From positions 1 to 42,193 of the forward strand of contig NZ_JANIBJ010000037.1 of the NCBI RefSeq assembly GCF_024505185.1: a stretch of 42,193 bases of DNA, in the 5' to 3' direction. The notes under the pieces were generated by a model. The model was not told the origin of the DNA. It saw nothing but the letters and a program-made list of their open reading frames with translations, and made no database searches. This stretch comes from Methylomonas subterranea (GTDB lineage Bacteria; Pseudomonadota; Gammaproteobacteria; Methylococcales; Methylomonadaceae). Each line of letters opens with the position of its first letter. Position 1 is the first letter of the stretch. A program made the translations under genes and the position numbers. Below, piece by piece: positions 3,098-36,799 of the stretch.

Positions 3098-3430
3098 ATG
3101 AAAAAACATATGGCGATTTTTGCTGCACTGTTATTGTCCGCCAGCGGTGCGTTTGCCGAGGAACACGCTGTTGAAGCCTTGAAACACTCCGAGCATGCGG
3201 TTACCCATGGTAGCGCGGGGCATGCGCCGCAATTGGTGACTCACGCGGAAAACGCCCTTGGTCATGCCAAACAGGCTGAAAGTGTCGCCAGCGGCGAAGT
3301 CAAAACACACATCAGTGCCGGAATCAAATCATTGGAAGAGTCGATCGCGCATGGCAAACAAAACCATGCCGATGTGGCCGGCAAACACGCCGCAGATGCG
3401 GTGTCCCACTTCAAGGCCGCCAACGGTTAA
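3098..3430 (+). CDS. SmbP-like small His-rich metal-binding protein
   Basis: A 110-residue protein with a clear signal peptide (MKKHMAIFAALLLSASGAFA, cleavage near 20) followed by a four-helix-type sequence. Histidines recur every few residues (HAVEALKHSEHAVTHG, HAENALGHAKQ, HGKQNHADVAGKHAADAVSHF). This matches SmbP, described from Nitrosomonas europaea, a periplasmic protein that binds several Cu(II) or other divalent ions. In copper-dependent methanotrophs or nitrifiers a role in copper buffering is plausible, but no copper gene is adjacent. The ATG has a weak ribosome-binding site (caggtaaatttt). It converges with the activator gene that ends at 3708, and 277 bp with no obvious terminator separate them. 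Confidence 0.85.
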   Translation: MKKHMAIFAALLLSASGAFAEEHAVEALKHSEHAVTHGSAGHAPQLVTHAENALGHAKQAESVASGEVKTHISAGIKSLEESIAHGKQNHADVAGKHAADAVSHFKAANG

Positions 3431-3707: not shown

Positions 3708-4775
3708 TCATGAAGCTATCTTCTCGGGCATCCTTCTGTGATGATTAGCCAACATGCCGTACAAGCCCAGTTTATGCCTGAGCACGTTGCGGCTGATATC
3801 CAGCATCTTGGCGGTCTGCACCTGATTTTCCTCGCAATATTCAAACGCGGTACGAATAATGGTCTCCTCTATGATATCGAAAAGCTTGGGCGGCGATTGC
3901 TCGAACAGGCGTTGCATGGCGCTTTCCAGCGACAGGGTCGATATGGCCGGGGCATGGTCTGACACCCTGACGCCGGTCAGTTTAAAATCCTCCGGCCGCA
4001 AGCGATTGCCCGGACAAACCAAAAGCGCCCGATGCACGGCATTTTCCAGTTCCCGTATGTTACCCGGCCAGTCGTAGTGCACCAACGCCAACTCGGCGGC
4101 GGGCGATAGCTTTACCTCGCCATAGCCCAGCCTTTCGGCATAGATTTTCAGAAAATGCCTGGTCAACGGCAGTATATCGCCCGGCCGCTCGCGCAATGGA
4201 CTGAGATGAATGGTGGCGACGTTGAAGCGGTAATATAAATCCGCCCGAAAATGTTGGGCCGCAACCGCTTCCTCCAGGTTGACGTTGGTTGCCGCGATGA
4301 TACGCACATCCACCGGCACCGGCTGTCTGGAGCCGACCTTGACCACTTCGCGCTCCTGCAGGACCCGCAGCAGTTTGGCTTGCAGGCCCAGAGGCAAATC
4401 GCCGATTTCATCCAGAAACAAACTGCCTTGATTGGCGGTTTCGAACCAGCCGGCCTTGGTAGCCACCGCTCCGGTAAATGCGCCTTTTTCGTGGCCGAAC
4501 AACTCGCTTTCGATCAGGCTCTCGCTGAGGGCGGCGCAGTTCAGGGCGCCAAACGTATGCTGCCCGCGCGAACTCAGTGCATGAATATGTCTGGCGACCA
4601 ACTCCTTGCCGGTACCGGTCTCGCCTATGATCAACACTGTAGCGTCACTGGGAGCGATGCGCTGGATTTGTTCCTCCAGCCGCCGCGATACCGGATCGTC
4701 GAAAACCAGGGCCGACGCGCGCACCGACTGCGCCAACGAACGGGCTTGTTGCTCGTCAAATGCCAATAAAGTCAT
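3708..4775 (-). CDS. stand-alone sigma-54-dependent activator (AAA+ and Fis HTH, no receiver)
   Basis: A bacterial enhancer-binding protein of 355 residues. A short N-terminal segment of about 25 residues precedes the AAA+ domain, which has Walker A GETGTGKE (51-58), the sigma-54 contact loop GAFTGA (98-103), Walker B LFLDEIGD (119-126), the R-finger region FRADLYYRFNV and WPGNIRELENAVHRALL. A C-terminal Fis-type helix-turn-helix follows (NQVQTAKMLDISRNVLRHKL). There is no response-regulator, GAF or PAS domain, so activity is probably set by expression level or a partner protein, as in PspF or SfnR. The sequence recalls SfnR-type activators of sulfone and sulfur-starvation genes (from memory, not searched). 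I chose the ATG at 4775 because AGGAGA lies four bases upstream; the longer TTG start at 4796 lacks this. Its own promoter region contains P3 and a composite UAS, suggesting autoregulation. Confidence 0.92.
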   Translation of the reverse strand: MTLLAFDEQQARSLAQSVRASALVFDDPVSRRLEEQIQRIAPSDATVLIIGETGTGKELVARHIHALSSRGQHTFGALNCAALSESLIESELFGHEKGAFTGAVATKAGWFETANQGSLFLDEIGDLPLGLQAKLLRVLQEREVVKVGSRQPVPVDVRIIAATNVNLEEAVAAQHFRADLYYRFNVATIHLSPLRERPGDILPLTRHFLKIYAERLGYGEVKLSPAAELALVHYDWPGNIRELENAVHRALLVCPGNRLRPEDFKLTGVRVSDHAPAISTLSLESAMQRLFEQSPPKLFDIIEETIIRTAFEYCEENQVQTAKMLDISRNVLRHKLGLYGMLANHHRRMPEKIAS

Positions 4776-4839
4776 ACAGTCTCCTAGAACTGGCAACTAA
4801 TGTGAAACGGGTCAATGCACCGATATCAAAACCGCAAAA

Positions 4840-4949: not shown

Positions 4950-5072
4950 ATAACCCCTCATCTCCTGCCCTTTTGGCCATTGCTTTTTTCCTTGGAATTA
5001 CAATCGATTTCGCCATATTTCGCGCCGTCCGCGCCATCTCCCGACCAAGACCGGCAATTTCGTTCAACGGGG

Positions 5073-5120
5073 TGTTGATATATAAACAACAACTGTTTGA
5101 CGGCTGTTGCTGTGTCAACC
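5073..5120. promoter_or_regulatory. composite enhancer (UAS) for P3
   Basis: Site 1 at 5073 is TGTTGATATATAAACA followed by ACA. Half-site TGTTT is at 5094 (+21). Site 2 at 5105 (+32) is TGTTG-CTGTGT-CAACC. The offsets match those at 12502 and 27655. It sits in the gap between the fhaC-like gene and the activator gene. Confidence 0.65.
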
Positions 5121-5144: not shown

Positions 5145-6713
5145 TTAAAACTCGTACGCCATGCGGAAATCGATGCGCTGCTGGCCCGGCTCCACGCTAC
5201 CCTGTTTATGAAACGGATAACCCCAGTCCAGTTCGCCGTTAAAATGCTTAAATACCTGCATGCGCAAACCCAATCCCGCCGCCGCCAATTCGGTATAGGC
5301 TTCCGTGGGCGGCAACGGGTCGTTTGTCCACAAGCCCGCCCAATCCACAAAACCCAACAGTCGCAGGTTCTGTACCGAGTCCCAATCGGCCGGCACCAGT
5401 TTGGGCGTATGCAATTCCAGCGACAGATTGACACCGTGATCGCCCAGTTGCTGAGTTTGATGATAGCCGCGCACGCTGAGCGGACCGCCGGCGGCGAATT
5501 GTTCGTTACTGATCAGGCGCGCCGAACTGGCCTGGCCAGACGCCCTGCCCTGCAGGCGAAAATCCAGCGGCAACACCTGTTGATGTTTAAAATCCGCGGT
5601 CAAATACAAAAAGTTGGGCGTGGCGTCGTTACGCTTGCTCTCAAACTCCCGCGCATCGTTACCCAGCCCGCGAACAGAGAAATGCGCCCCCAAATTCAGC
5701 GAACTGACCCTGCCCTCGCCGCGCCAAGCGCCGTCATATCCCAACAGGAAAGAGGCGTAGCTGATGGGTTGATTGTCCAACCCGTCGATATTGATGGTCT
5801 GATCGAAACTTTTGTAATCGAAGCCAACAGTCGCGCTGTGCATAAAGTCGCCGGCGTTGGACAGCGGCTTGACCAGCCGGGCGCCGTAAATGGATCCCGC
5901 CCCTAATACCGAAGCACCGCCTATGCTGATACCCAAATCGGTGTTGGAGCTGATGCCGATACCGTACATGGCCAGACGGGTATCGGCCCAGCCGGTCGGC
6001 AACACATAGGTGCCGGCCCAAACCGAAACTTCATCCGGCGCTTCCGGCGCGGTTTGATAGGACAAGGAGGCGCTGTGAAATTTCTGCCAGAGATTGTCGT
6101 AACGCAGGGAACCCACCACCCGGGTCAGAGTGGTGTTTTCCGAGTTGCGGGTATTCACTTCGACACTGCCGTGCAAGGGTAATTCGTCCTTCACCCGCAA
6201 CTCCACCTCCATCTTGCCCGGCGTGGAGCCGGCCCGAAAAATAGGCGTAATGTTGCGATCGGCCGATTGTTCCGCCAACGTACCGACTTGCGCCTGCACA
6301 TCCGGCATGTGCGGCACCCGGCCCTCGGCCAGCGCAGGCACCCCATCGCGAATCTTGCCCAGCGCGTAATAGCGCGAGCCCGTGATATGCAGGGTTTCCA
6401 CGGTGCCCTCCGTCACTTCCAGCCGCACCGCGCCATCCTTAACGTCCTGCTCCGGTATCGCCACCACCACGGTCGGATAGCCCGCCTTGCGATAGGCCTC
6501 TTCCAGGGCTTGCCTGGCTTTTTCCACATCATCGACCGTCTTGTCCGGCCCCATGAAGGGGTACACGCTACGCTCCAGGGTTTCTTCTTCCAACACGGTA
6601 TTGCCGGAGATTTGAAAATCCAGCACATCGAAAGTCGGCACGGCGTCGGCCCCTAGTCCCCGGGCGCTTTGGACCAGCATGACCAGTCCCCCCATCAGTC
6701 GCGACCATCTCAT
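5145..6713 (-). CDS. two-partner secretion outer-membrane transporter (TpsB, FhaC/ShlB family)
   Basis: 522 residues. A signal peptide of about 22 residues is followed by two POTRA-type modules (FDVLDFQISGNTVLEEETL near 28-48, then about 100-175) and a 16-strand Omp85-type barrel to the C-terminal phenylalanine (MAYEF). The conserved barrel-lid loop motif VRGY occurs in GGPLSVRGYHQTQQLGD near residue 410. Family members take an unfolded TpsA protein from the periplasm through its TPS domain and thread it to the cell surface; the obvious partner is the 3454-residue protein at 12706-23070. It is the last gene of the operon starting at 12311, and its ATG overlaps the stop of the coiled-coil gene by 4 nt (ATGA), so translation is probably coupled. 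TpsA and TpsB are usually adjacent; here five more genes separate them. Confidence 0.93.
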   Translation of the reverse strand: MRWSRLMGGLVMLVQSARGLGADAVPTFDVLDFQISGNTVLEEETLERSVYPFMGPDKTVDDVEKARQALEEAYRKAGYPTVVVAIPEQDVKDGAVRLEVTEGTVETLHITGSRYYALGKIRDGVPALAEGRVPHMPDVQAQVGTLAEQSADRNITPIFRAGSTPGKMEVELRVKDELPLHGSVEVNTRNSENTTLTRVVGSLRYDNLWQKFHSASLSYQTAPEAPDEVSVWAGTYVLPTGWADTRLAMYGIGISSNTDLGISIGGASVLGAGSIYGARLVKPLSNAGDFMHSATVGFDYKSFDQTINIDGLDNQPISYASFLLGYDGAWRGEGRVSSLNLGAHFSVRGLGNDAREFESKRNDATPNFLYLTADFKHQQVLPLDFRLQGRASGQASSARLISNEQFAAGGPLSVRGYHQTQQLGDHGVNLSLELHTPKLVPADWDSVQNLRLLGFVDWAGLWTNDPLPPTEAYTELAAAGLGLRMQVFKHFNGELDWGYPFHKQGSVEPGQQRIDFRMAYEF

Positions 6714-7408
6714 GGTTGCGCCTCGTCTTGCGGTAACGGCGATTCAGCCGGTACCGCCTCCGGTTCCGCCTCGTTGATCTCGAAAGGCGTCACTTGCAAC
6801 TGTTTGAGTTTATAGACGTAATCCTCGACCGCTACTTCGGTATCGACTTGTCCGATGCCGGTAAACGGCTCCAACTCCGCCAGTTGCGCCAGAAAGCCCT
6901 TGTCGCGGTAACTCCGCACAATCTCCAGATTGAGCTGCCGCAATTTTTGCACCTGCTCGCCACAGGTCTGCATCCATTGCTCCCGCTCCTGTACGGCCTT
7001 GACCAACAACAGATTGTCCGCGTGAATCGCCTTGGCCTTGCCGACCACGGTATTATGTTTTTCCAACAAGGCCCGCCGGCTTTGCCGCTCCTGATCCAAC
7101 TGGCTTTCAAGACCGCCGCGAACCGATTCCAGAGCGTTCTTATAATGCTCGAGTTGAGACTGCAAGGCCGGCAAACGGGCGGCACTCGCGTCCAGCGTCT
7201 GTACGCGCGCTTCCAGGTCTGCCTTTTCCGCCTGCCACTGCTGCTTTTCGGCTTGCAAGGCGGCTTTTTCCTGCGTCAACTGCCGTATCATGCCCTGCGC
7301 CTTGACGATGGCCGCGTTTCCGTCATTGGTTTTCGGCACCGCCTGCGCGACTTGCTGAGAAAGCAACATCAGTAACAGGACGACGCGAACGCTATTCACA
7401 CCATGCAT
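6710..7408 (-). CDS. periplasmic coiled-coil protein of the secretion operon
   Basis: A 232-residue protein with a signal peptide (about 1-23, ending QQVAQA). A long coiled coil covers about 30-165 (heptad-like IRQLTQEKAALQAEKQQW and similar), with one cysteine near 148. A C-terminal region (LAELEPFTGIGQVDTEVAVEDYVYKLKQLQV) precedes a Pro/Glu-rich tail. I recognise no named family. It is 11 nt from the porin stop and overlaps the fhaC-like start, so it belongs firmly to this operon. A rod-like periplasmic protein between an inner-membrane motor and outer-membrane pores could be a spacer or coupling rod; that role is inference. Confidence 0.8.
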   Translation of the reverse strand: MHGVNSVRVVLLLMLLSQQVAQAVPKTNDGNAAIVKAQGMIRQLTQEKAALQAEKQQWQAEKADLEARVQTLDASAARLPALQSQLEHYKNALESVRGGLESQLDQERQSRRALLEKHNTVVGKAKAIHADNLLLVKAVQEREQWMQTCGEQVQKLRQLNLEIVRSYRDKGFLAQLAELEPFTGIGQVDTEVAVEDYVYKLKQLQVTPFEINEAEPEAVPAESPLPQDEAQP

Positions 7409-7419
7409 ATCGCCTACCC

Positions 7420-9234
7420 CTAAAACTGCGCATTCAAATCGACATTGATGGTGTCGATGCTGTAACGCGGCCCATCGATACTGTCGGTGCTAAACCAGCG
7501 CATATTCAACCAGGCGTGCCTGTTCAGGCCATATTGAGCACCCAGCGCCCAGCCGCGGGCATCGGTACCGCCCTGATGAAATTGCGAATCGGTAAAGGCA
7601 TCCAGCACCGCATCGCGTTGAACGTAACGGTATGCCAAATTGACACTCCATTGGCCCCAGCGGCGAATTTCGGCATCACCCACATCCAGCCTGACTTGAT
7701 AGGCATTGGTACGGTCCCGCAAATCGGTGCTGGCGAAGGCGCCGTCAAACTCCCGCAAAATCCGCTGGCGATCGAAAGCCATGTTTTTGGCGTAATCCGC
7801 CGTCAACATCACATGCACAGGGTCGAAACCCGCGTAATCAAAACTGGCGGTGGCGTTAAAGACTTTGAACTCCGAGGCCAAACCGAACAAACAACCGACC
7901 GCGTCGTCGCAGCGTTGATCCTGACCAAGCCAGGTATTGGCGTCGGTAATCGCCACCATGGAGTTGCCTTTTTGCACGAACTGCGGCGCGGTCCAGTCGT
8001 TGGCGTAACTGCCGAATTTGTTTCTGCGGGCATTGACGTTTTTATACTCATAATAGGAGGCGGCAATATTGAAACGCGACTGACCGAACGCCAACCAATC
8101 GGCGCCCAATTGTCCGGCATACAGCCACTTGTCGTTGACGGAAATATCCACCTCCTGAATCGGAAACACCCCCAAGGTCATAAACACGCTGTCCGGGCTC
8201 TGCTGGCCCTGGTTGATGCCGAAACGGGCGGTGGGATTGGGGGTTTTGTAGCCGGCAAACTTGCCGCTGCCGCGGTTGAACGGCAGCCTGAAACTACCGG
8301 CCACGCCTTGAAAGCTCAAATCCGGGTCGAACACCACATCGGTGGAAACGAATGGGTTCAGGAAACGGCCGGCATAAGCGGTAAACCAACTGCTTCCTTG
8401 TCCATCCAGATAGTCGTACTTCAGATAGGCCCGGTCTATGACGAAATCGAAGGATTGTCCGGTATTGCCAAGGGACTGATCATTGGAAACCGGGCTGGCG
8501 ATATTGCTGGTCGCCAGACGCACGCCGGCTTGCAGACCGTCGGCCAGTTCGCCGTGAAAACCCAGCCGGAATCGTTCGCGGATCCGCAATCGATCGGTCT
8601 GGTTGTTCAATATGGCTTGGTTGGGATTCATGCCTACCTGTCTCAACAAACCGGCTTGCGGAGTGTTAGCGGCGCGATTGATATTCATCCAGTTGTAAGG
8701 ACCGATAAAATCACCATCGCCGCTTAATCCGCTGTTGAGAATGCCGCCTTCGTTTTCCTTGCCGTAAAACTCATCGGCAAAACGTATACGTATGTCGAAA
8801 TCCGGATGAATTGCCGCCACCCATTCCGGCAACGCGGCGGGTATGCCCCAACCCTCGGATTTGGCATCCTTTTTGACGCCGGCTATGACTTCATCCTTCA
8901 ACTCGGCACGCACCTGATCGCGAATTTCCTTTTTGACAAACTCCGGCACATAGCCGACATGCTTGACCTTGGCGGCCGGTTTTTTGCCGCTGGCGGCTTG
9001 CAACGCTTCACCCAAGGCTTCGTCCTGGGCGATTTCGCCGGCTTCCTGCTGGGCGGCGCCGACCAGGCCTTGACCTTCTTTTTGATCGATGACTCCGCGC
9101 TGCACCAGCAGATCGACCAGATTGACGAAGGTGGATTTTTTCACCTTGAGAATTTCTTCGCCGGCCTCGGCCCGGGCCGAGGGAGACAGGCCGACGGCCA
9201 GCAGAAGGCAGAGAGTTTTGCTTGCGCTATTCAT
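7420..9234 (-). CDS. putative porin (Porin_5-type) with N-terminal periplasmic extension
   Basis: 604 residues. A signal peptide ends at ARA (about 23). A periplasmic segment of about 120 residues includes STFVNLVDLLVQRGVIDQKEGQGL, the short N-terminal motif usual in this porin group. A long beta-barrel follows: FDIRIRFADEF, RLRIRERFRLGFHGEL, AGVRLATSN, DFVIDRAYLKYDYL, GRFLNPFVSTDVVFDPDLSFQGVAG, ending in DLNAQF with the terminal Phe expected of an outer-membrane barrel. Proteins of this type are annotated as putative porins without a defined substrate. Placed between TonB and FhaC genes, it might pass a substrate or form part of an outer-membrane complex. The start at 9234 has a poor ribosome-binding site; the gap to the TonB stop is 45 nt. 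Confidence 0.85.
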   Translation of the reverse strand: MNSASKTLCLLLAVGLSPSARAEAGEEILKVKKSTFVNLVDLLVQRGVIDQKEGQGLVGAAQQEAGEIAQDEALGEALQAASGKKPAAKVKHVGYVPEFVKKEIRDQVRAELKDEVIAGVKKDAKSEGWGIPAALPEWVAAIHPDFDIRIRFADEFYGKENEGGILNSGLSGDGDFIGPYNWMNINRAANTPQAGLLRQVGMNPNQAILNNQTDRLRIRERFRLGFHGELADGLQAGVRLATSNIASPVSNDQSLGNTGQSFDFVIDRAYLKYDYLDGQGSSWFTAYAGRFLNPFVSTDVVFDPDLSFQGVAGSFRLPFNRGSGKFAGYKTPNPTARFGINQGQQSPDSVFMTLGVFPIQEVDISVNDKWLYAGQLGADWLAFGQSRFNIAASYYEYKNVNARRNKFGSYANDWTAPQFVQKGNSMVAITDANTWLGQDQRCDDAVGCLFGLASEFKVFNATASFDYAGFDPVHVMLTADYAKNMAFDRQRILREFDGAFASTDLRDRTNAYQVRLDVGDAEIRRWGQWSVNLAYRYVQRDAVLDAFTDSQFHQGGTDARGWALGAQYGLNRHAWLNMRWFSTDSIDGPRYSIDTINVDLNAQF

Positions 9235-9279
9235 AATGATAAAAGTTACAGTCGTTACAATTCTTGTTTGCCATGCCCA

Positions 9280-9948
9280 TCAACCCCGCGAGACCAATCT
9301 GATCCGGACCGGTTGCGGCATATTCTCCGGCGGTGCCTTACCGATGCCGGCCCGCAGGCGGGACAAGGCATCGCGCAAGGCCTGATCGACATCGGCCTTG
9401 CCGCTGCCGCTAACCAGCTCGCTACGGCTAATTCGGCCATCCGCGCCCACCCATACGCTCAACACCACGTTGTAGTCTTCCTTCATGGCCGCGGTTCCGG
9501 CCAGAAGACTCTGCAATGCATCTTCCACTTGCCGTTTGATCTGACCGCCGTACCAGACAATGGCATTACCGCCGCCACCGCCCAGCAAGGAAGCGCCACC
9601 CTTGCGGGCCGCCAGTCCGAAACCGTCGGCGCCGGCACTGCCGTCGGCATCCAACCCCAGTTCCTCGCCCGCCGGCTCCGCGGCTTCCTCGGGGGCCGGC
9701 TCCGGTTCGGGCTCCGGTTCCGGCTCCTCGATCTTTTCCTCCTCCACTTCCGGCTCAGGCGGCTTCACTTCGGGCGGCGGCGGGGGCGGAGGCGGTTGAA
9801 TCATGGTGATCTGTTGCACCACTTTTTTGGTTTGCGGCGGGCGCTCGAATAGGTCCTGCAACAAGTAAACCGCGATCACGACTAACAGTGTCAGGGCTAC
9901 TCCCAGCAACACCGGCAGCCGGCGCAGCCATGCGTATTTTTTGTTCAT
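9280..9948 (-). CDS. TonB/TolA-like energy transducer (TPS operon)
   Basis: 222 residues. A basic N-terminus (MNKKYAWLRR) precedes one membrane helix (about 12-31) and a Pro/Glu-rich periplasmic spacer (PPPPPPPPEVKPPEPEVEEE, then EPEPEPEPEP). A Gly-rich linker and a C-terminal TonB/TolA-fold domain follow (NAIVWYGGQIKRQVEDAL to PVRIRLVSRG). TonB proteins carry proton-motive-force energy from ExbB-ExbD to an outer-membrane partner. The C-terminus has no classical TonB YP motif and reads more like TolA_C (VVLSVWVGADGRISRSELVSGSG). No TonB-dependent receptor is encoded nearby, so the outer-membrane partner is unknown. It is 170 bp from the ExbD stop, a gap with no visible gene. Confidence 0.88.
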   Translation of the reverse strand: MNKKYAWLRRLPVLLGVALTLLVVIAVYLLQDLFERPPQTKKVVQQITMIQPPPPPPPPEVKPPEPEVEEEKIEEPEPEPEPEPAPEEAAEPAGEELGLDADGSAGADGFGLAARKGGASLLGGGGGNAIVWYGGQIKRQVEDALQSLLAGTAAMKEDYNVVLSVWVGADGRISRSELVSGSGKADVDQALRDALSRLRAGIGKAPPENMPQPVRIRLVSRG

Positions 9949-10118
9949 AAATCGTTGTCTATGCGATTTTTCGCTAATTTGTGCCGCATGGGCACTCAGC
10001 CGTACCCACCTTATCCAGCTGCTACCAAACGACGTCTCATTATGGGTGGGCCGGAATAAGCCTCAGCGTTTCCGGCATGCTCCCATTCCTGCCTGCGTTC
10101 GGCGAAACCGGATGCTCT

Positions 10119-10523
10119 CTACTTGACCAGCTTCTGCGTCACCAAGCCGAGTTGCGAGATTTCCAGACGGGTGACGATGTCCAGCACCTCGATCACCTTC
10201 TGGTACTGCACGCTGGCATCGGCCTTTACCACCACCGGCAAATCCGGCACGGCGGCCTTGAACTGCGCCAGACGGGTTTCCAGTTCCTGCAGCGACACCG
10301 GATAAGTATCCAGATAAATGGTACCGTCCGGAGTGATGGAGACTGCCTTGGTTTTGGGTTTGGACAAAGACGGCGTACTGCTGGCCTTGGGCAGGTTGAC
10401 GGTGATGCCCTGCACCGTGGCGGTGGTCATGATGATGAAGACGATCAGCAGCACGTAGGCCACATCCAGCATGGGCGTGACGTTAATGTCGTCGTAAATC
10501 TTGTCGTCAATTTCGATGGACAT
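10119..10523 (-). CDS. exbD: ExbD/TolR-family proton-channel subunit (TPS operon)
   Basis: 134 residues with the standard layout: a short cytoplasmic N-terminus (DDINVTPMLDVAYVLLIVFIIM) with the channel aspartate in the membrane helix at about residue 20, then a periplasmic ExbD/TolR domain (ITVNLPKASST to VKADASVQYQKVIEVLDIVTRL). It partners the ExbB domain of the gene directly upstream, starting 3 nt after that gene's stop with a GGAGAA ribosome-binding site, which implies coupled synthesis. Confidence 0.93.
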   Translation of the reverse strand: MSIEIDDKIYDDINVTPMLDVAYVLLIVFIIMTTATVQGITVNLPKASSTPSLSKPKTKAVSITPDGTIYLDTYPVSLQELETRLAQFKAAVPDLPVVVKADASVQYQKVIEVLDIVTRLEISQLGLVTQKLVK

Positions 10524-10526
10524 GAC

Positions 10527-12311
10527 TTATTGTTCTCCGGCTTGCGCGGCGCGCATGGACAAAACCGCCAGGAACTCATCGGCGAACACTTTCATGCTGA
10601 CGGTGATCTCCTTGATGCGGGTCATTAAATAGTTGTAGCCGAACAGGGACGGTATCGCCACGGCCAGACCGGCCACCGTGGTCAACAAGGCGGCGGCAAT
10701 GCCGGGGGCGATGGCATTGATGTTGACATCGCCGGAGGCGGCGATGGTGGCAAAAGTGTTCATGACCCCGACCACGGTACCCAGCAGTCCCAAAAACGGA
10801 CCGCCAGCCACGGCGATGGTCAATAAAACCATGTTGCTGTTCAGCCGCTGCACTTCGCTGACTACCTGGGCATCCAGCTTGACTTTCAGGTAATTCCAGG
10901 CCTGCGTGCTGACCGATTGGTCGGGACTTCCCTGCAACTGCTCGAGTTCGTGTATGGCCAGATGATAGAGATGGTAAAGAGTCGAACTCTGGAAGTGGTC
11001 GTGCTTGCCCACCAGCGCCGTGAGGAAATCCGAGTCCGCCAGTTCCCGCTCTTCTTCGCTTTCTTCGTGATCCAACGCCCCCAGGCGCTTATGATCCAGC
11101 TGACGGTATTTTTCCAGAAACAGCCGGTTGTCGTTTCCGACCCGCTTGATGACCAGCGCCTTGGTGACCATTACCAGCAGCGCGATCACCAGCATGATCA
11201 TGGTCAGGGCGATGACTACCCAACCGTCCACCGTGGTGCTCTGCACGATCACCAGCAGATGGCTGTCGCCACTGTCGTTGGATTCATCCTCTCCATAGGC
11301 CATCACCGCAAAGTCAGGGCTTTGCGTCCGAAAGCTCAGTTTGATCCAGTCGGCGCTACGGGCCGTGGCGGCGATTTGCACTTCATCCAGCACGGCATTC
11401 AGGCTGTCGCCGATACGAATGTCGGGATTGAGGGCGCTCAGGCTTATATTGGCTTCCGCGACGATGCTACCGTCCAAGTACAGCGCCAATTTGTCGGTAC
11501 TCAGCACCACAGCCACATGCCGCCAATTGCCCAACCCCAGTTCGACCGGCGCGGTTTCCGCCACACCGGCATCACCCGACCAGCGAGCAGACAACGCCGA
11601 CCCTTCGATCAGTAATTCCAGACCTTTACCGGCTTGTTGCGCCGACAGCAGGCTAGCTCCAGTTTGGGCGGCTTCCAGTTTCAGCCAGCTGGAAAATGTC
11701 CAGCCCTTGCCGGGGTCGACGGCCAGTTGCGGGGCAGCCGACACCGTGATCGGTCCCGCGCCGGTCAGTTGCGCCGCCGCGCCGATGTAGCCGGCCGGCA
11801 GGATTTGCGCCTTGGAATCGGCTGCATGGCTGGCATAAGCGGTGGCATCTTGCGGCAGGGTTTCACCATCCTTGAAGTGGTAGACCAGCGCTTGCGCCAC
11901 ATCGTACAGCGACTGGCTGTTGGAGCCGTCGGGCGCGTTGGCGTTGCCGTAATACATCCAGAAATCGTCGCTGGCGATACCACCCCGCACCTGCGGTAGC
12001 TTTATCCAAACCAGGCCCATTTCACTAAAAGGGTCGACCTGCTCCACTTGATAACTCAGCGGGGTTTTATCGTCTTTCAAGAAACGCAGGTCGCGACCGT
12101 TGTCCGCCAGTTCGGCAAAATAGCCGAAATTGCCGGCGTGCAGCCTGACCAGAATGGGAAAATCACTCAGGGTTTCTTGAATGTCGGCGCCGGTTACGCC
12201 GGCATCCACCGTAACTTGCCGACGCGAATTCCAGTCGTCGTTCCACCAGGCTTGCGCCAATAGCGGAAATAGCAACCCGGCCAGCAAGGCCAAGCAAGGA
12301 TTTATTTTCAT
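10527..12311 (-). CDS. DUF2341-LamG-ExbB/TolQ/MotA fusion protein
   Basis: 594 residues. The signal peptide (about 1-21, ending AQA) is followed by WWNDDWNSRRQVTVDAG, the typical start of DUF2341 (about 22-150). Next comes a LamG/concanavalin-like jelly roll (about 190-330: GWTFSSWLKLEAAQTG, NWRHVAVVLSTDKLALYLDGSIV) and then a membrane helix near 362-388. The rest is an ExbB/TolQ/MotA channel domain with the hallmark LLTIAVAGGPFLGLLGTVVGVMNTF and GIAAALLTTVAGLAVAIPSLFGYNYL. The proton-channel subunit therefore carries a large periplasmic, probably ligand- or glycan-binding head. Ordinary ExbB has no such head. It is first in the operon and follows sigma-54 promoter P4 by 56 nt; I see no clear Shine-Dalgarno sequence before the ATG. 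Confidence 0.9.
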   Translation of the reverse strand: MKINPCLALLAGLLFPLLAQAWWNDDWNSRRQVTVDAGVTGADIQETLSDFPILVRLHAGNFGYFAELADNGRDLRFLKDDKTPLSYQVEQVDPFSEMGLVWIKLPQVRGGIASDDFWMYYGNANAPDGSNSQSLYDVAQALVYHFKDGETLPQDATAYASHAADSKAQILPAGYIGAAAQLTGAGPITVSAAPQLAVDPGKGWTFSSWLKLEAAQTGASLLSAQQAGKGLELLIEGSALSARWSGDAGVAETAPVELGLGNWRHVAVVLSTDKLALYLDGSIVAEANISLSALNPDIRIGDSLNAVLDEVQIAATARSADWIKLSFRTQSPDFAVMAYGEDESNDSGDSHLLVIVQSTTVDGWVVIALTMIMLVIALLVMVTKALVIKRVGNDNRLFLEKYRQLDHKRLGALDHEESEEERELADSDFLTALVGKHDHFQSSTLYHLYHLAIHELEQLQGSPDQSVSTQAWNYLKVKLDAQVVSEVQRLNSNMVLLTIAVAGGPFLGLLGTVVGVMNTFATIAASGDVNINAIAPGIAAALLTTVAGLAVAIPSLFGYNYLMTRIKEITVSMKVFADEFLAVLSMRAAQAGEQ

Positions 12312-12458: not shown

Positions 12459-12549
12459 ACACTGTATTTCAGCAACTTAGCCCGCCACCCTGCTGAATGA
12501 CTGTTCATATATCAGCAACATGTGTTGATTTGGTGTTGATATATCAACA
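12459..12549. promoter_or_regulatory. composite enhancer (UAS) for P4
   Basis: Sites occur at 12459 (right half only, TATTTCAGCAACT), 12502 (TGTTC-ATATAT-CAGCA), 12523 (TGTTG half-site) and 12534 (TGTTGATATATCAACA, a perfect 16-bp palindrome). The steps of 43, 21 and 11 bp are near multiples of one helical turn, so all sites face the same side of the DNA. Confidence 0.7.
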
Positions 12550-12666
12550 CCGTGCTGATTTTCGGTCATCCTCCGAGCAGCCGGCGCGCCCGAAATAGTC
12601 AATAACGGGCGGCGGCATGGATTCGACGGATAAGCAAGCGATATGCCTCCCCCGGTTCGACACAGT

Positions 12667-31661: not shown

Positions 31662-32078
31662 TTAACTGCCTGGCGCGGTCAACACCGACAACTTGGTCAC
31701 GCCGGCCCGCTCGATGGAGGCCATCACCTTGGCCACGGTGCCGTATTGCACGCCGTCGTCCGCGTTCAGGTTCAGCGCCAGTTCGGGATCCGCCGCCTGG
31801 CGGTTTTTCAGCTCGCCCTCGATCGCTTCAAGCGCTATTTCCTGCTTGTCGATAAACACCTTGCCGGTCGCATCCACGCTCAGGTAGACGGCGGCCTTCT
31901 CGTCCGGCGGCGCGGTTTCGGCGGTTTTGGGCAGATTGACGTGCACGGCCTGGGTCAGCAACGGCGCGGTGACGATGAACACCACCAGCAACACCAACAT
32001 TACGTCGACCAGGGGCGTGACATTGATCTCGCCCATCACATCGTCATCGCCGCCGCCATCTTTTGTATTGAATGCCAT
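31662..32078 (-). CDS. exbD: ExbD/TolR-family protein (second TonB system)
   Basis: 138 residues. The membrane helix has the channel aspartate (GEINVTPLVDVMLVLLVVFIV, Asp near 25), and an ExbD periplasmic domain follows (VHVNLPKTAETAPPDEKAAVYLSVD to VQYGTVAKVMASIERAGVTKLSVL). Its ATG overlaps the ExbB stop by one base (TAATG), so the two are translationally coupled. It is the last gene of the tonB-exbB-exbD operon. Confidence 0.93.
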   Translation of the reverse strand: MAFNTKDGGGDDDVMGEINVTPLVDVMLVLLVVFIVTAPLLTQAVHVNLPKTAETAPPDEKAAVYLSVDATGKVFIDKQEIALEAIEGELKNRQAADPELALNLNADDGVQYGTVAKVMASIERAGVTKLSVLTAPGS

Positions 32079-32851
32079 TATGCATGCGCCTCCGTCGCGA
32101 CCAGTTCATCGTAGGAATCCTTGCCGGCGGATTTTTTACCGCCGCTGATTTCGGTCAGCTTGCTTGCCGCCGCGGCGGTGGATTTGGCGGTTGGGTTGGG
32201 AATGATGAACGAGGCTTTCAGGGCCAGATGCACGAAGTCGATGGCAAAATCGTCCAGAAAGGCCCATTGCACCTTGTTGCGGCGGATAAAAAAGTTGTAC
32301 CCCACCACGGCCGGAACCGCCACGGCGATACCCACCGCCGTTGCCACCAGCGCCTCGCCGATGGGGCCCGCCACCACTTCCAGACTGGCGGAACCCGATT
32401 TGCTGATATTAGTCAAGGCGCCCATGATGCCCCACACCGTGCCGAACAAGCCGACGAACGGGGAAATACTGCCGATGGTGGCCAGAACGGCCAGACCGCT
32501 TTCCAGGGAACCGCGTTCCTTCTGCATTTGCTGGCGCAAGCGTCTATCCAACAATTCCTGCCTATCCCAGGTATGATCCAGGTCGTGGGTGGATGCGCCG
32601 CCGTCGGTTTCGATCAGCGTCGCAAATCCTATACCGGCCACCCTGGCGGCCGGCCCCTTCTCGTCGGCCAGATGCGCCGCCGCCTGAATATTGGGCGAGC
32701 CCCAGAATTGCTTGCTGAATTTGCGATTATGGTAAGAAATCCGGATATGCTGGATCCCTTTGATCAAGATCAAGGCCCAAGTCACCACGGAAGCCGCAAT
32801 GAGTGTATCGAGCGTGCCATCGACGATGACGCTGGTTGCTATATCAGACAT
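32078..32851 (-). CDS. exbB: ExbB/TolQ-family proton-channel protein (second TonB system)
   Basis: 257 residues with three membrane segments: near 12-32 (TLIAASVVTWALILIKGI), near 127-148 (LAVLATIGSISPFVGLFGTVWGIM) and near 168-190 (IGEALVATAVGIAVAVPAVVGYNFF). The second and third carry the signature residues of MotA/TolQ/ExbB channels. Length and layout are normal for ExbB, in contrast with the fused version at 10527-12311. It starts 9 nt downstream of the TonB stop. Confidence 0.93.
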   Translation of the reverse strand: MSDIATSVIVDGTLDTLIAASVVTWALILIKGIQHIRISYHNRKFSKQFWGSPNIQAAAHLADEKGPAARVAGIGFATLIETDGGASTHDLDHTWDRQELLDRRLRQQMQKERGSLESGLAVLATIGSISPFVGLFGTVWGIMGALTNISKSGSASLEVVAGPIGEALVATAVGIAVAVPAVVGYNFFIRRNKVQWAFLDDFAIDFVHLALKASFIIPNPTAKSTAAAASKLTEISGGKKSAGKDSYDELVATEAHA

Positions 32852-32860
32852 ATGAAATCC

Positions 32861-33670
32861 TCAAGATAAATTAAAGGTAATCGGAACGGTCACGTTGCCG
32901 GCTATAGGCGTTTCGCCGCGCTTGGCCGGCACGAAGGACCATTTGTAAACGGTTTTGACGGCGGCATCGTCCAGCACTTTTTGCCCGCTGGATTTGATGA
33001 CGCTGACTTGATCTGGCTTGCCGTCGGGTTTGACATGCACCTTCATCAATACCTTGCCTTCCCAGCCACGTTCCTGGGCGATTTCGGGATATTCCGGAGC
33101 GGGATTATTCAGATAATCCGCGCCGGCCGACGGCAGGGTGATCTTCTCTTCCACCACCGGCGCGGGTGGCGCGGGCGGCGCGTAAACGGGCGCGGGCGAA
33201 GGCGGTGCATCCGAAACCACTGGTGTCTGCACGACTGGCGCCTGTTCGACGACCTTGGGTTTTGGCTTGGGTTTTTGCGGCTTTAGCGGCACCACCTTTT
33301 GCACCGGCGGAATCACGACCGGAGGCGGCGGCACAGGCTTGGGTTGCGGTCTGGCCAGGGTAATCTGAACCTTGGATTCCGCCTTCGGCGGTTCGACGAT
33401 TTCCTGCTCCAGCGACAATCGATCGAAACGATTCACCACCGTGGAATGAATCAATATCGATAAAAACCCCAATATCAGGTAATCGGCCCATTTGGCGTCG
33501 CGGTTATCGCCCGTGTATTTGAAATTTTTCAGTACGCTGCCGTCGGCGGAAGCGACCAATGGCTCCAACGCGCCGACTCCGGCCGATTGCAAGGCCAGCG
33601 AGCCCGGGGACTGCCAGTTGAGATTGCCTGGCGGTTCGAATTTTGAAAATGCGCGTAAAGGATTGCTCAT
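32861..33670 (-). CDS. tonB: TonB energy transducer (second TonB system)
   Basis: 269 residues. A longer than usual cytoplasmic N-terminus of about 62 residues precedes a membrane helix (ADYLILGFLSILIHSTVV, about 63-80). A Pro/Lys spacer follows (PQPKPVPPPPVVIPP, KPQKPKPKPKV), then a classical TonB C-terminal domain (NNPAPEYPEIAQERGWEGKV, KSSGQKVLDDAAVKTVYKWSFVPAKRG, NVTVPITFNLS). I chose the ATG at 33670 because GAGGAA lies 8 nt upstream; starts further up lack this. The sigma-54 promoter P7 lies about 215 bp upstream. The receptor it energises is not in this window. Confidence 0.92.
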   Translation of the reverse strand: MSNPLRAFSKFEPPGNLNWQSPGSLALQSAGVGALEPLVASADGSVLKNFKYTGDNRDAKWADYLILGFLSILIHSTVVNRFDRLSLEQEIVEPPKAESKVQITLARPQPKPVPPPPVVIPPVQKVVPLKPQKPKPKPKVVEQAPVVQTPVVSDAPPSPAPVYAPPAPPAPVVEEKITLPSAGADYLNNPAPEYPEIAQERGWEGKVLMKVHVKPDGKPDQVSVIKSSGQKVLDDAAVKTVYKWSFVPAKRGETPIAGNVTVPITFNLS

Positions 33671-33886
33671 AACCGTGTTCCTCATACTCATTGAATCGCG
33701 TGAATCCCTATCGCCTCGATGGGCGCATGCGCCCATCGGTCTTTATTGGATTCGTGTCGTTTAAGGGTGGCGCCGGACAAGTCAACCTTCCCGCATCTGC
33801 TTGGTGACAGGAAACGAAAAAGGCGGCACGATACGATCCACTCATCGTTCGTCAATGACTTGCTCAACGCCAACTGTTTCTGTTAA

Positions 33887-34200: not shown

Positions 34201-35682
34201 CTAATCCACCAACGGCAAGATCAGATAATCGGTCCATTTGCGCTCCCCGCCTGCTTCATCCTCGCCGGGCAGCTGACTCTGGTTCCAGCCGCCGCCCAGA
34301 GCCTTGACCAAAGCCACGGAGGCCGCCAGACGCTGGCCCCGCAGTTGCAGCGCGGTCTGCCGGCTGGACAATTCGGCCGCCTGGGTAACGATGACGTTCA
34401 GATAGCTGACGGTACCCGCCTTGTATTGATTCTGAATCAATACCAGCGACTGCCTGGCGGCGGCAACCGCCTTGTCCTGAACCTGGGCCTCCCGCTCCAG
34501 TATGCGCAAGGCCGCCAGACTGTCTTCCACTTCCTGAAAGCCGGTCAACACGGTTTGCCGGTAGCCGGCCACGCTGGCATCGTAGGCGGCCATCGCCTGT
34601 TTGTACTGGGCATTCCTGGCGCCGCCGTCGAACAGCGTCAGCGCCACGCCGGCGGGACCCAGCGCCCAAAAGCGCTTGGCCATGGTAAACAAGGTATCGG
34701 CATCGCTGGATTGAAAGCCGTTGGTGGCGGCCAGATTCAGGGTCGGGTAATAAGCAGCCTTGGCCACGCCGATTTGGGCATTGGCGGCGGCCATGTTGCG
34801 CTCGGCGGCTGCGATGTCCGGCCGGCGTTCCAGCAGCTCGGACGGCAGGCTGAGCGGAATTTCCGGCAGTTGCCCGGCCAGTTCTAATGCGGGCAGGGAA
34901 ACTTCCGCCGGCGTCTTGCCGATCAGCACCGCGATGGCATGTTCCAGCCTGGCCCTTTGTACACCGAGATCGATAGCCTGGGCCCTTGCGGTCTCCAACT
35001 GGGTTTGCGCCTGCGCCACATCGGCCTTGGAGACCACGCCGGCGTCATAACGGTTTTGGGTGATTTCCACATTTTTGCCGAACGCCGCCAGAGTCTCCTC
35101 CAACAGCGCTTTTTGCGCGTCCAACACTTTCATTTGAAAATAACTGTCGGCCAGGGCGGCCTGGCTGGACAATATCAACGCATGCAAGGTGGCGGCACTG
35201 GCCTGGGCACTATCGATGTTGGCCTCCAGTTGCCGCCGCACCTTGCCCCACAAGTCGGGCTCCCAGGCAATGTTGACGGCCTGGCTGAACAGATTGCGCA
35301 CCCCGGACACCGCAACGCTCTGGCCGGTGGCGGCCTTGAAGCGGTTGAAGCCGCCGTTCAGCATCGCCAGCGGCAACAAGGACGCTTGCGCCGATTGCAC
35401 CAGATGTTGCGCCTGCCGGTATTGCGCTTCCGCCTGGGCAATGGTTTGGTTGGCGCCCGCCACCTGTTGCTCCAGAACATTCAATTGCGGGTCGTTGAAC
35501 ACTTCCCACCAGTTGCCGGGCAAGGCGTTATCCCTGGGACTGGCCTGTTTCCAGCCCTTGACTTCCTTGAATTCAGCCGAAACCGAGGCTTCCGGCCTGA
35601 TGTAATCCGGGCCGACCGTGCAAGCAGTCAACGGCAGGGCGAGCGAGGAACAAACGAACAGGGGATAAACTATCGGACGCAT
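34201..35682 (-). CDS. outer-membrane efflux lipoprotein (OprM/NodT/CusC type)
   Basis: 493 residues. A lipoprotein signal ends LALPLTAC (lipidated Cys near 21) and is followed by TVGPDYIRPE, the hallmark of RND-type outer-membrane factors. Two repeated coiled-coil hairpins follow (LEQQVAGANQTIAQAEAQYRQAQ; SQAALADSYFQMKVLDAQKALLEETLAAF; LLERRPDIAAAERNMAAANAQIGVAKAAYYPTL; SQAMAAY-type repeats to SVALVKALGGGW). It forms a trimeric channel from outer membrane to periplasm. The reading frame is intact, but the upstream pump gene is decayed, so it may be an orphan or serve another pump. The ATG at 35682 is 14 nt after the RND fragment's stop and has a weak ribosome-binding site. The same frame stays open upstream into the TetR remnant. 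Confidence 0.9.
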   Translation of the reverse strand: MRPIVYPLFVCSSLALPLTACTVGPDYIRPEASVSAEFKEVKGWKQASPRDNALPGNWWEVFNDPQLNVLEQQVAGANQTIAQAEAQYRQAQHLVQSAQASLLPLAMLNGGFNRFKAATGQSVAVSGVRNLFSQAVNIAWEPDLWGKVRRQLEANIDSAQASAATLHALILSSQAALADSYFQMKVLDAQKALLEETLAAFGKNVEITQNRYDAGVVSKADVAQAQTQLETARAQAIDLGVQRARLEHAIAVLIGKTPAEVSLPALELAGQLPEIPLSLPSELLERRPDIAAAERNMAAANAQIGVAKAAYYPTLNLAATNGFQSSDADTLFTMAKRFWALGPAGVALTLFDGGARNAQYKQAMAAYDASVAGYRQTVLTGFQEVEDSLAALRILEREAQVQDKAVAAARQSLVLIQNQYKAGTVSYLNVIVTQAAELSSRQTALQLRGQRLAASVALVKALGGGWNQSQLPGEDEAGGERKWTDYLILPLVD

Positions 35683-35696
35683 ACAAATACGGGTGT

Positions 35697-36221
35697 TTAA
35701 ACAGAATTGGCCGCCTGGCGGGCGGTACGATGAAAAAACGACCGGTGCAGCCACAGCCGAAACCGATCCAGGTATAGATACACCACGGGCGTGGTGTACA
35801 GAGTCAACATTTGGCTGAAAACGAGACCGCCGATGATGGATATGCCCAAGGGCTGGCGCAGTTCGGCGCCGTAACCCGTGCCCAATGCCAGCGGCAAGGC
35901 GCCGAACAGCGCGGCCAGCGAAGTCATCATGATCGGCCTGAATCGCAAAATACAAGCCTGAAAAATGGCTTCGCGGGAATCCAGCCCCTGGCTGCGCTCG
36001 GCATGCAAGGCAAAATCTATCATCATGATGGCGTTTTTCTTGACGATGCCGATCAGCAAGATCACCCCGATCAGCGCAATCAGGGTAAATTCCCGGCCGC
36101 AGGCCAGCAAGGCCAGCAAGGCGCCGACGCCGGCCGACGGCAGAGTCGACAAAATGGTCAGGGGATGAATCAGGCTTTCGTAAAGCACGCCGAGCACGAT
36201 GTAAACGGTGACTATGGCGGC
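35697..36221 (-). pseudogene. RND efflux pump, C-terminal remnant
   Basis: This frame encodes the last part of a MdtB/MdtC-like RND transporter: [38 protein letters not shown], then the TM10-12 region [72 protein letters not shown]. About 170 residues remain of a protein that normally has about 1040. The piece has no start of its own. At 36221 it joins, in a different frame, a non-adjacent piece of the same pump. No membrane-fusion (HlyD-type) gene is present. Confidence 0.85.
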
Positions 36222-36663
36222 CCTGGTCCAGCACGTCGCTGACCGCTTCGGACAACTCCGGCCGATCTTGCAAGGCCGCCACCAGCCGGCCGGTCCAGCG
36301 GTTCAGTTCTTCGCTATCCGCCCCTTCCAGCGTGAACTGGTAGGGGGTGCGTCCGAGCCGGCTTTCCAGAGTCAGGTCCTGTACCTGCCGTAGGGGCATG
36401 GCTTGGGCGCTGATGGCCAGGGTCATGATGGGCGAGTCGGCCGGGTAGCGCGTCAATTCGCTGTTGAACGCATGGCGCCATGACTCCAGGTACAAGGTTT
36501 CCTTGTCGCGAAAGTGATAATTGACCGACGCAATATTGGCACCCGCCTGCTGGCATATCTCGGCGATGGTAGTTTCCTGGTAGCCTTTTTCGGCAAAAAT
36601 ACGGCCAGCCGCCGATAAGAGCCGCTGCCGGGTACTACGCGGCTTGCTGGTAAGATTCGTCAT
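36222..36663 (-). pseudogene. TetR regulator fused to an internal RND fragment
   Basis: From the ATG at 36663 the frame gives a TetR/AcrR helix-turn-helix (STRQRLLSAAGRIFAEKGYQ, TIAEICQQAGANIASVNYHF, DKETLYLESWRHAFNSEL; about residues 8-75). Near 36400-36440 it changes without a frame break to an internal RND pump segment ([31 protein letters not shown] to [11 protein letters not shown]). The TetR effector domain, the adaptor gene and about two thirds of the pump are missing. The likely cause is deletion between a TetR-adaptor-RND-OMF operon's parts, followed by a second deletion at 36221. An assembly error is the alternative. Confidence 0.8.
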
Positions 36664-36732
36664 GCGGACTGCAATTTCCTGAGCGAGCGTGTTGGCAATT
36701 GAAACGAGGAATTCAAATCTGCATTTCAATTT

Positions 36733-36748
36733 AGCAATAAAGATGCCA
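36733..36748 (-). promoter_or_regulatory. sigma-54 promoter P8 of the TetR/efflux locus
   Basis: The minus strand reads TGGCATC-TTTA-TTGCT with GG-N10-GC spacing. Predicted start is about 36722, 59 nt before the ATG at 36663. The paired palindromes at 36800-36847 lie 78-125 bp upstream. Confidence 0.65.
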
Positions 36749-36799
36749 CATCTCAAGGCATTGCTTTTATAGTATTTTTATCGTCGACTCATGGTCGGT

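Follow-up and report, generated by a model that had tools for sequence, protein, structure and literature searches.

A Ton/Tol-type motor probably dedicated to two-partner secretion in Methylomonas subterranea, and a conserved TpsA tail as its possible handle

What does a TonB-ExbB-ExbD proton motor do inside a two-partner secretion (TPS) locus? The question is raised by contig 37 of the Methylomonas subterranea genome (4.4 Mb, 104 contigs), which was analysed as one stretch of 42,193 nucleotides and is called the window hereafter. On its minus strand, the genes for a giant exoprotein (tpsA), an ExbB fusion, ExbD, TonB, a Porin_5 barrel, a coiled-coil protein and the TpsB transporter follow one another, succeeded by a sigma-54 activator gene (Table 1). 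A passage of one TPS review states that no electrochemical gradient powers type V export (PMC5422565), and the word exbB does not occur in that review; a second review, in the passage concerned, calls the driving force unclear (PMC8151025). We find that the motor very probably serves this type of TPS, and we tentatively propose that a conserved peptide at the C-terminal end of TpsA is the handle on which it acts. Recurrence of the gene set in other bacteria points to a possible powered version of a pathway that is regarded as energy-free.

Both secretion partners are clearly recognisable, as TpsA carries an N-terminal TPS domain (PF05860 at 70.9 bits against a cut-off of 33.5, with a TIGR01901 match as well) and TpsB combines a POTRA domain with a ShlB/FhaC barrel; the nearest named TpsA relatives are from Methylococcaceae and Methylomicrobium. 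The first-pass annotation had placed the six genes from exbB to tpsB in one operon, and all six were recovered at the minus-strand coordinates it gave. The gaps from exbB onward to tpsB measure 3, 170, 45, 11 and -4 bp, a spacing on which cotranscription of the six genes is plausible, with a promoter that could lie inside the 170-bp exbD-tonB gap; tpsA is separated from exbB by 394 bp and tpsB from the activator gene by 348 bp. Two of the earlier statements had to be qualified. The protein named ExbB does contain a MotA_ExbB domain, fused to a large extra N-terminal part that consists of DUF2341 and a LamG-like domain, and it scores nearer TolQ; the reported lack of a TonB-dependent receptor is true of the window contig, and 20 PF00593 receptor barrels were matched elsewhere in the genome. 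The whole set is duplicated on contig 7 of the same genome, in the order TpsB-TpsA-ExbB-ExbD-TonB-Porin-coiled coil. Contig C14, which encodes an ExbB-like protein of 580 aa, was considered as a third copy and rejected, as no component matched there.

Dedication of the motor to TPS was assessed through gene order in relatives (handles G, L and C denote genomes, loci and contigs). The order set comprised the best 80 of 580 relatives of the ExbB fusion from one scan of genome contigs, with counts confined to loci that had enough flank, and keeping those nearest to the fusion biases it to close relatives. ExbB was followed by ExbD in 74/74 loci, TonB in 71/71, the porin in 64/67 and the coiled coil in 62/62, and the end of tpsA lay just upstream of ExbB in 59/69. 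The full order TpsA-ExbB-ExbD-TonB-Porin-coiled coil was kept in 51 of the 56 close-relative loci, and the refuting outcome named in the first-pass annotation, a lack of conserved gene order, did not arise. Among the ten loci in which TpsA was missed, it lies further upstream in four (L082, L092, L097 and L120) and starts on the opposite strand in L046, while no TpsA was found within the flank examined in five (L056, L060, L063, L108 and L111). In seven close relatives TpsB comes after the coiled coil, and elsewhere it stands ahead of tpsA or exbB; in the distant genomes, the order is mostly TpsB-ExbB-ExbD-TonB-Porin(-coiled coil). The association is also present outside the class, in G290, G335 and G403.

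This observation is further strengthened by co-occurrence across a class survey of 143 genomes, each of a different genus, and a phylum survey of 398 genomes from 213 genera (G000 and G107 are common to both). DUF3739, the C-terminal domain of TpsA, was detected in 10/143 class genomes and DUF2341 in 13/143, with all ten included (Fisher p = 4e-13). Ordinary-sized open reading frames (ORFs) with DUF2341, about 590-730 aa long, that match the window ExbB were found in 10/143, namely nine DUF3739 genomes and G104 (9/10 vs 1/133, p = 1.9e-12), and full-length Porin_5 (>450 bits) in 11/143, namely the ten DUF3739 genomes and G104 (p = 1.5e-14), with weaker Porin_5 matches alone (118.5 bits or less) in 8 more. 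The remaining three DUF2341 genomes of the class have ORFs of 1632 aa (G101), 1093 aa (G067) and 4506 aa (G128); the motor run of G101 lies elsewhere, with the end of ExbB at a contig edge followed by ExbD-TonB-Porin-coiled coil. Across the phylum, DUF3739 was present in 14/398 genomes, DUF2341 in 13/398 and both in 13/398, and the one DUF3739 genome without a DUF2341 match (G418) has an ExbB cut by the contig end and then ExbD-TonB-Porin. Motor genes were thus located in 10/10 class and 14/14 phylum DUF3739 genomes. The neighbourhood of TpsA and motor is beyond chance, and because the order recurs and the components co-occur, the dedication of the motor to this TPS type, which the first-pass annotation had proposed, is well supported. 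Two genomes (G513 and G335) have three DUF3739 matches to one DUF2341 match each, which suggests a motor shared among several TpsAs.

Some motor genes stand outside this arrangement. Second ExbB-ExbD-TonB trios in G136 and G119 have no TpsB or porin nearby; that of G119 (L030 and L031; G119:C3, about 154000-157600), with a DUF2341-ExbB, lies beside type II secretion-like genes and also adjoins a 214-aa protein matching the N-terminal part of TpsA. A 1631-aa DUF2341 ORF (L250; G101:C82, 1-4894) partially matches the ExbB-fusion profile and lies apart from the G101 motor run.

The converse comparison used 60 other TpsB loci taken from POTRA_2 matches of the class survey, with about a dozen fragmentary or weaker ones left out. 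An ExbB-ExbD-TonB cluster beside TpsB was found in 0/60 of these, at least 3 kb of flank being available on each side of 43 loci and on one side or both of 56. Lone ExbD- or ExbB-like matches occur in two unlinked loci, one near the edge (L156) and one close to a contig end, about 2 kb from TpsB (L175), and an ExbB/ExbD pair lies about 19 kb from TpsB in L174, in a longer stretch. In a TpsB tree of 86 rows, built by a quick search with no bootstrap and with L181 and L175 dropped beforehand, the 28 linked TpsBs fall on one side of a branch with an SH-aLRT of 100; linked here means that the locus or genome has the motor, and TpsB is not adjacent to it in G010, G036, G101 and G136. The nearest solved chains by sequence are CdiB (6wim) and TpsB4 (2mhj). 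By eye, the genes just 3' of tpsB in L174, L177 and L141, which are motor-less sister loci, begin FecR-like.

The residues of the motor are intact, with the transmembrane Asp of ExbD retained in 105/105 linked-set sequences (97 by pattern and 8 by eye, some of them duplicates) and GLLGTV in 100/105 ExbBs. The ExbB fusion is closer in score to TolQ than to ExbB, and ExbD is closer to TolR, with every score short of the equivalog cut-off. The TonB C-terminal domain has an alpha-beta-beta-alpha-beta fold in an AlphaFold2 (AF2) model and just passes TIGR01352 (27.2 against a cut-off of 27.1); the best Foldseek match of the model is TolA III with a TolB peptide (E 7.5e-4), followed by TonB domains at E 5e-3 and weaker, and the query TM-scores are low because much of the model is disordered. 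A conserved Gly/Asp-rich TonB motif, LGLDAEG.AG.DGFGL.ARKGG (window 9595-9660, residues ~97-118), lies between the Pro-rich linker and this domain.

The association of TPS and TonB genes is already known since 2009, and the novelty claimed for it at first was overstated. According to passages of Llamas 2009 (PMC2729926), the PUMA3 regulon of Pseudomonas aeruginosa includes TPS, exbBD and PA0696 genes, and PUMA3 clusters of other bacteria are associated with TPS, ExbBD and PA0696 homologues. A single promoter transcribes phdA, pdtB, exbB2D2, tonB4 and PA0696-PA0701, according to a section of PMC4971064, and the set pdtB-exbB2-exbD2-tonB4-PA0696-PA0697 was termed "still uncharacterized" in an excerpt from 2020. 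The PUMA3 locus (pdtA, phdA-pdtB-exbB2-exbD2-tonB4-PA0696-PA0697) and the window share TpsB-ExbB-ExbD-TonB-porin and a further protein; by its position, PA0697 would be the coiled coil. As in PUMA3, a Phd-like gene (by eye) precedes TpsB-ExbB-ExbD-TonB-Porin-coiled coil in G265 (L229); the TpsB encoded there shares 98% identity with a Pseudomonas sp. protein and about 74% with P. aeruginosa TpsBs over 90%. The window differs from PUMA3 in that tpsB is last in the set rather than first and a sigma-54 activator lies nearby, and no sigma, anti-sigma or STN match of a VreAIR type was found among 24 Pfam-scanned window proteins, which are part of the window ORFs.

The new element of this analysis is a conserved TpsA tail peptide resembling a TonB/TolA box. 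In linked TpsAs, DUF3739 is succeeded by a linker of poor conservation, beyond which lies a conserved peptide that typically reads LSVEVLGFG(D/E); of the 57 tails that show the core pattern, 16 have this peptide starting 8 residues before the end. We compared 73 linked TpsAs (the contig-end-cut G101 TpsA and two duplicate tails being dropped) with 13 unlinked ones (the L148 ORF being dropped for masked letters). The strict pattern [VI].[VI].G.G occurs within the last 45 residues of 45/73 linked and 0/13 unlinked TpsAs and in 1.9% of internal 45-mers, and a broader pattern in 53/73 linked tails, 0/13 unlinked tails and 32/6800 internal 60-mers. Across the phylum, the motif was found in 16/18 tails, three of them near-identical, including tails from genomes outside the class; the L219 tail was read from a wrong starting point, yet holds the motif, and the TpsA tail of G265 carries it as well. 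The predicted mature N-terminus of the organism's own TolB reads GLTIEITKG, a pattern resembling the tail consensus LSVEVLGFG, and we treat this likeness as a lead.

An AF2 model of the last 200 TpsA residues, built from an alignment of 56 sequences, has strands over the DUF3739 part, a stretch at fragment residues 134-173 with pLDDT <50 and a tail that is unpacked on the beta-helix. It thus gives no support to the tail as a final beta-helix strand, and a Foldseek search with it returned no useful match. A two-cysteine tail, reminiscent of an HMW1-like loop, was rejected as a common feature because the pattern is present in 24/76 linked TpsA ends. Longer TpsA tails with a second strand-like motif (~VQVLGAGAL) 30-40 residues after the first are found in L210, L211, L213, L215 and L224, and the tail DNA pattern has two further matches in the M. 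subterranea genome (C3 and C16).

Taken as a mechanism, these features would combine as follows. TpsB, without the usual plug helix, would export a beta-helical TpsA that is not released, as its disordered C-terminal linker and conserved terminal peptide would remain in the periplasm. The TonB C-terminal domain may dock on this peptide by strand addition, in the manner of TolA III on the TolB N-terminus and of TonB on a TonB box; the proton motor of ExbB and ExbD would then pull, so as to hold, tension or release the giant adhesin or to complete its export, with the Porin_5 barrel in the outer membrane and the coiled coil in the periplasm as putative dedicated accessories. According to a passage of PMC7391070, strand augmentation is how TolB binds TolA III, and TonB engages TonB boxes in a similar way. 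A TPS with its own Ton/Tol-type force transducer acting on a retained TpsA tail is a tentative reading, to which we give somewhat less than even confidence. Rather more doubtful is its general form, a recurrent proton-powered TPS in which a TonB/TolA-like transducer grips an adhesin C-terminal box, such that energy from the inner membrane, and not TpsB gating or folding alone, would drive the display, tension or release of a surface protein.

Several observations weigh against a tail handle or against a powered export. As one passage of PMC5422565 reports, type V export can proceed in vitro without external energy. The broader pattern is missed by 20/73 linked tails, most of them variant-like by eye; the unlinked control is small (n=13), and the linked/unlinked contrast is descriptive because the patterns were written after the linked tails had been seen. 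The resemblance to a box is weak alone, since V-x-V-x-G is a generic strand pattern, and AF2 predicts no strand for the tail, at modest confidence. Three unlinked TpsAs (L133, L143 and L128) end near another hydrophobic strand, ~LFVVDGGI, and YDVILDSGVD stands close to the end of a fourth (L142), so that C-terminal strands may be general TpsA anchors, which speaks against a tail specific for TonB. G104 (85% complete) has the motor, porin and coiled coil without a DUF3739 match. In the zebrafish experiments excerpted from PMC2729926, a mutant in the tonB homologue PA0695 was as virulent as wild type, a result that does not discriminate because tpsA and tpsB mutants were likewise.

Other clients of the motor have to be weighed, and the first-pass annotation had named two, the FhaC-like pore and the porin. 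TonB may act on TpsB, opening or resetting its pore as part of a gated or energised transporter. This is consistent with the single supported group formed by linked TpsBs, with tpsB adjoining exbB in the majority of distant genomes examined and with the short N-terminal segment of the protein. Classical TpsBs of the FhaC type carry the plug helix H1 between signal peptide and POTRA1, a feature that is not universal. In the window TpsB, POTRA1 directly follows the signal peptide with a linker of 13 aa (heuristic) that leaves no room for H1, and the signal peptide-POTRA1 segment, measured from heuristic signal cleavage, has a median of 28 residues in linked TpsBs (n=18, outliers 84 and 103) and 56.5 in unlinked ones (n=52). 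Another TpsB gate may be needed because linked TpsBs mostly do without the H1/linker segment. However, the eight nearest unlinked TpsBs have a median of 19 (n=8, one at 70), and the idea that loss of H1 marks TonB linkage was rejected: these motor-less TpsBs are mostly without H1 too, so the loss is not tied to the motor. Moreover, the segment before POTRA1 is variable and of low complexity, with no conserved TonB-box-like motif by eye, and we consider an action on TpsB unlikely.

The porin was examined on the same terms. An energised Porin_5 channel may move a ligand in or out, with the adhesin co-regulated and binding the same ligand or surface. In favour of this, the porin comes after TonB in nearly all loci, its N-terminus is conserved and helical-looking (EELLKLRNTT..NLI..LV.QGV, plus a second conserved segment in the alignment), and the Pseudomonas relative is phosphate-regulated, in passages of PMC5422565 and PMC4971064. 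Against this, full-length Porin_5 is confined to the DUF3739 genomes and G104 among the 143 and is therefore not a general uptake porin, and in split sets the porin lies apart from TonB: in G010, porin and coiled coil are 3.7 kb past tpsA, away from ExbB-ExbD-TonB, and in G403 TpsB, porin and coiled coil stand beside tpsA on one contig with ExbB-ExbD-TonB on another. No TonB-box-like strand was seen by eye in the porin N-terminus, and a porin client likewise seems improbable to us. The sole conserved strand-like candidate client found is the TpsA C-terminus, which had not been considered before; of the earlier interpretation, the dedicated motor was retained and the pore or porin client was not.

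A Tol-Pal-like stabiliser, in which motor, porin and coiled coil brace or locally reshape the envelope round a very large export complex and neither TpsA nor TpsB is pulled directly, would agree with the TolQ/TolR-like motor and with a TonB domain nearest TolA III, a domain that binds short strands. Unlike Tol-Pal, the unit contains no TolB or Pal match, and the genome's own tolB lies on contig C5; such a role is very unlikely. Mere co-inheritance or co-regulation, with the motor serving the TonB-dependent receptors encoded elsewhere in the genome, has just as little probability, given the separate TonB-ExbB-ExbD set at 31662-33736 of the same window and the recurrence of the association outside the class. 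That second set is more canonical, lies about 20 kb off and adjoins an outer-membrane efflux-type gene.

Comparison with known systems places a motor acting on the TpsA tail in context. The window set shares with classical TPS (FhaC/FhaB, HMW1B/HMW1A and CdiB/CdiA) the TPS domain and a TpsB with POTRA and ShlB barrel, and differs from it in its dedicated motor, porin and coiled coil, a TpsB without H1 and a TpsA with DUF3739 and a conserved tail. Salmonella SiiAB, a proton channel of the Mot/Exb/Tol family encoded with the giant adhesin SiiE, is dispensable for secretion into the medium and needed for polarised-cell invasion, according to a passage of PMC12607715, and, by our proposal, works like the motor described here. 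It differs in being type I where the window set is type Vb, in the peptidoglycan binding of SiiA and in that no TonB-like transducer is described for SiiAB in that passage. The Vibrio TonB2 system (TtpB-TtpC-ExbB2-ExbD2-TonB2-TtpD) is likewise a TonB system with extra parts, the leucine-zipper TtpB2 among them (in an excerpt of PMC6957404); it differs in serving siderophore uptake, and the DUF3450 likeness of the window coiled coil is weak (25.1 bits, below the cut-off of 32.6, with 9/22 homologues matching weakly at E 0.01 or better). A 2025 paper (PMC12505986) mentions, in the part concerned, Exb/Tol-type proteins with DUF2341 and DUF3450 appendages, which it treats as unknown, and the name DUF3739 was not found in the literature searched.

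Such a TPS subclass, always accompanied by a proton motor in the surveyed genomes, is a natural test case for the energetics of type V secretion, and the conserved TpsA tail makes a concrete, testable prediction. If the proposal is true, TonB-type motors would join SiiAB in the handling of surface proteins; should the TpsA tail not be the handle, the tight gene linkage nonetheless points to a neglected module in environmental bacteria and Pseudomonas.

Table 1. Features of the TPS-motor locus in the window and the evidence for each.
Feature	Position	Strand	Evidence
tpsA, giant exoprotein, 3454 aa	12706..23070	-	TPS domain residues 59-295, PF05860 E 2e-19; C-terminal DUF3739 residues 3280-3383, PF12545 E 4e-32
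TpsA C-terminal tail, strand-like motif VLTADVVGFGD, then terminal two-cysteine segment	12709..12786	-	kept in linked TpsAs
exbB fusion, DUF2341 + Laminin_G_3 + MotA_ExbB, 594 aa	10527..12311	-	Pfam domains, alignment
exbD, transmembrane Asp retained (MLD)	10119..10523	-	PF02472 E 8e-30
tonB, transmembrane helix, Pro-rich linker and TonB/TolA-like C-terminal domain	9280..9948	-	PF13103 E 2e-7 (over cut-off), AF2, Foldseek
Porin_5 outer-membrane barrel, conserved N-terminal region	7420..9234	-	PF16930 E 1e-167, alignment
Coiled-coil protein, apparent signal peptide, weakly DUF3450-like	6710..7408	-	DUF3450 E 1.3e-5, below cut-off
tpsB, ShlB/FhaC family, 522 aa	5145..6713	-	PF08479 E 2e-17, PF03865 E 2e-20, both over cut-off
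sigma-54 activator without obvious sensor domain	3708..4796	-	PF00158 E 1e-69
Perfect 18-bp palindrome, candidate operator, tpsA-exbB gap	12533..12550	.	chance expectation mean 0.00

The sequence of the palindrome in the tpsA-exbB gap is GTGTTGATATATCAACAC, and a second copy with 2 mismatches lies upstream of the sigma-54 activator gene at 5072-5089. Similar palindromic sites (2-4 mismatches) were found in five relatives, four of which also have the activator gene, and close activator homologues follow tpsB in four relatives (L044, L045, L048 and L061). The sigma-54 activator is a possible regulator of the unit; no match to the sigma-54 promoter consensus was found in the tpsA-exbB gap within one mismatch, and a scan for promoters and terminators gave nothing informative. 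Elsewhere in the window, an 851-aa ORF at 34201-36756 has a TetR_N match towards the start and an outer-membrane efflux protein match towards the end, and is either an odd fusion or has a mis-called start, and a small metal-binding protein (SMBP, PF16785) is encoded at 3098-3430, near an arylsulfotransferase-like gene at 1071-2495.

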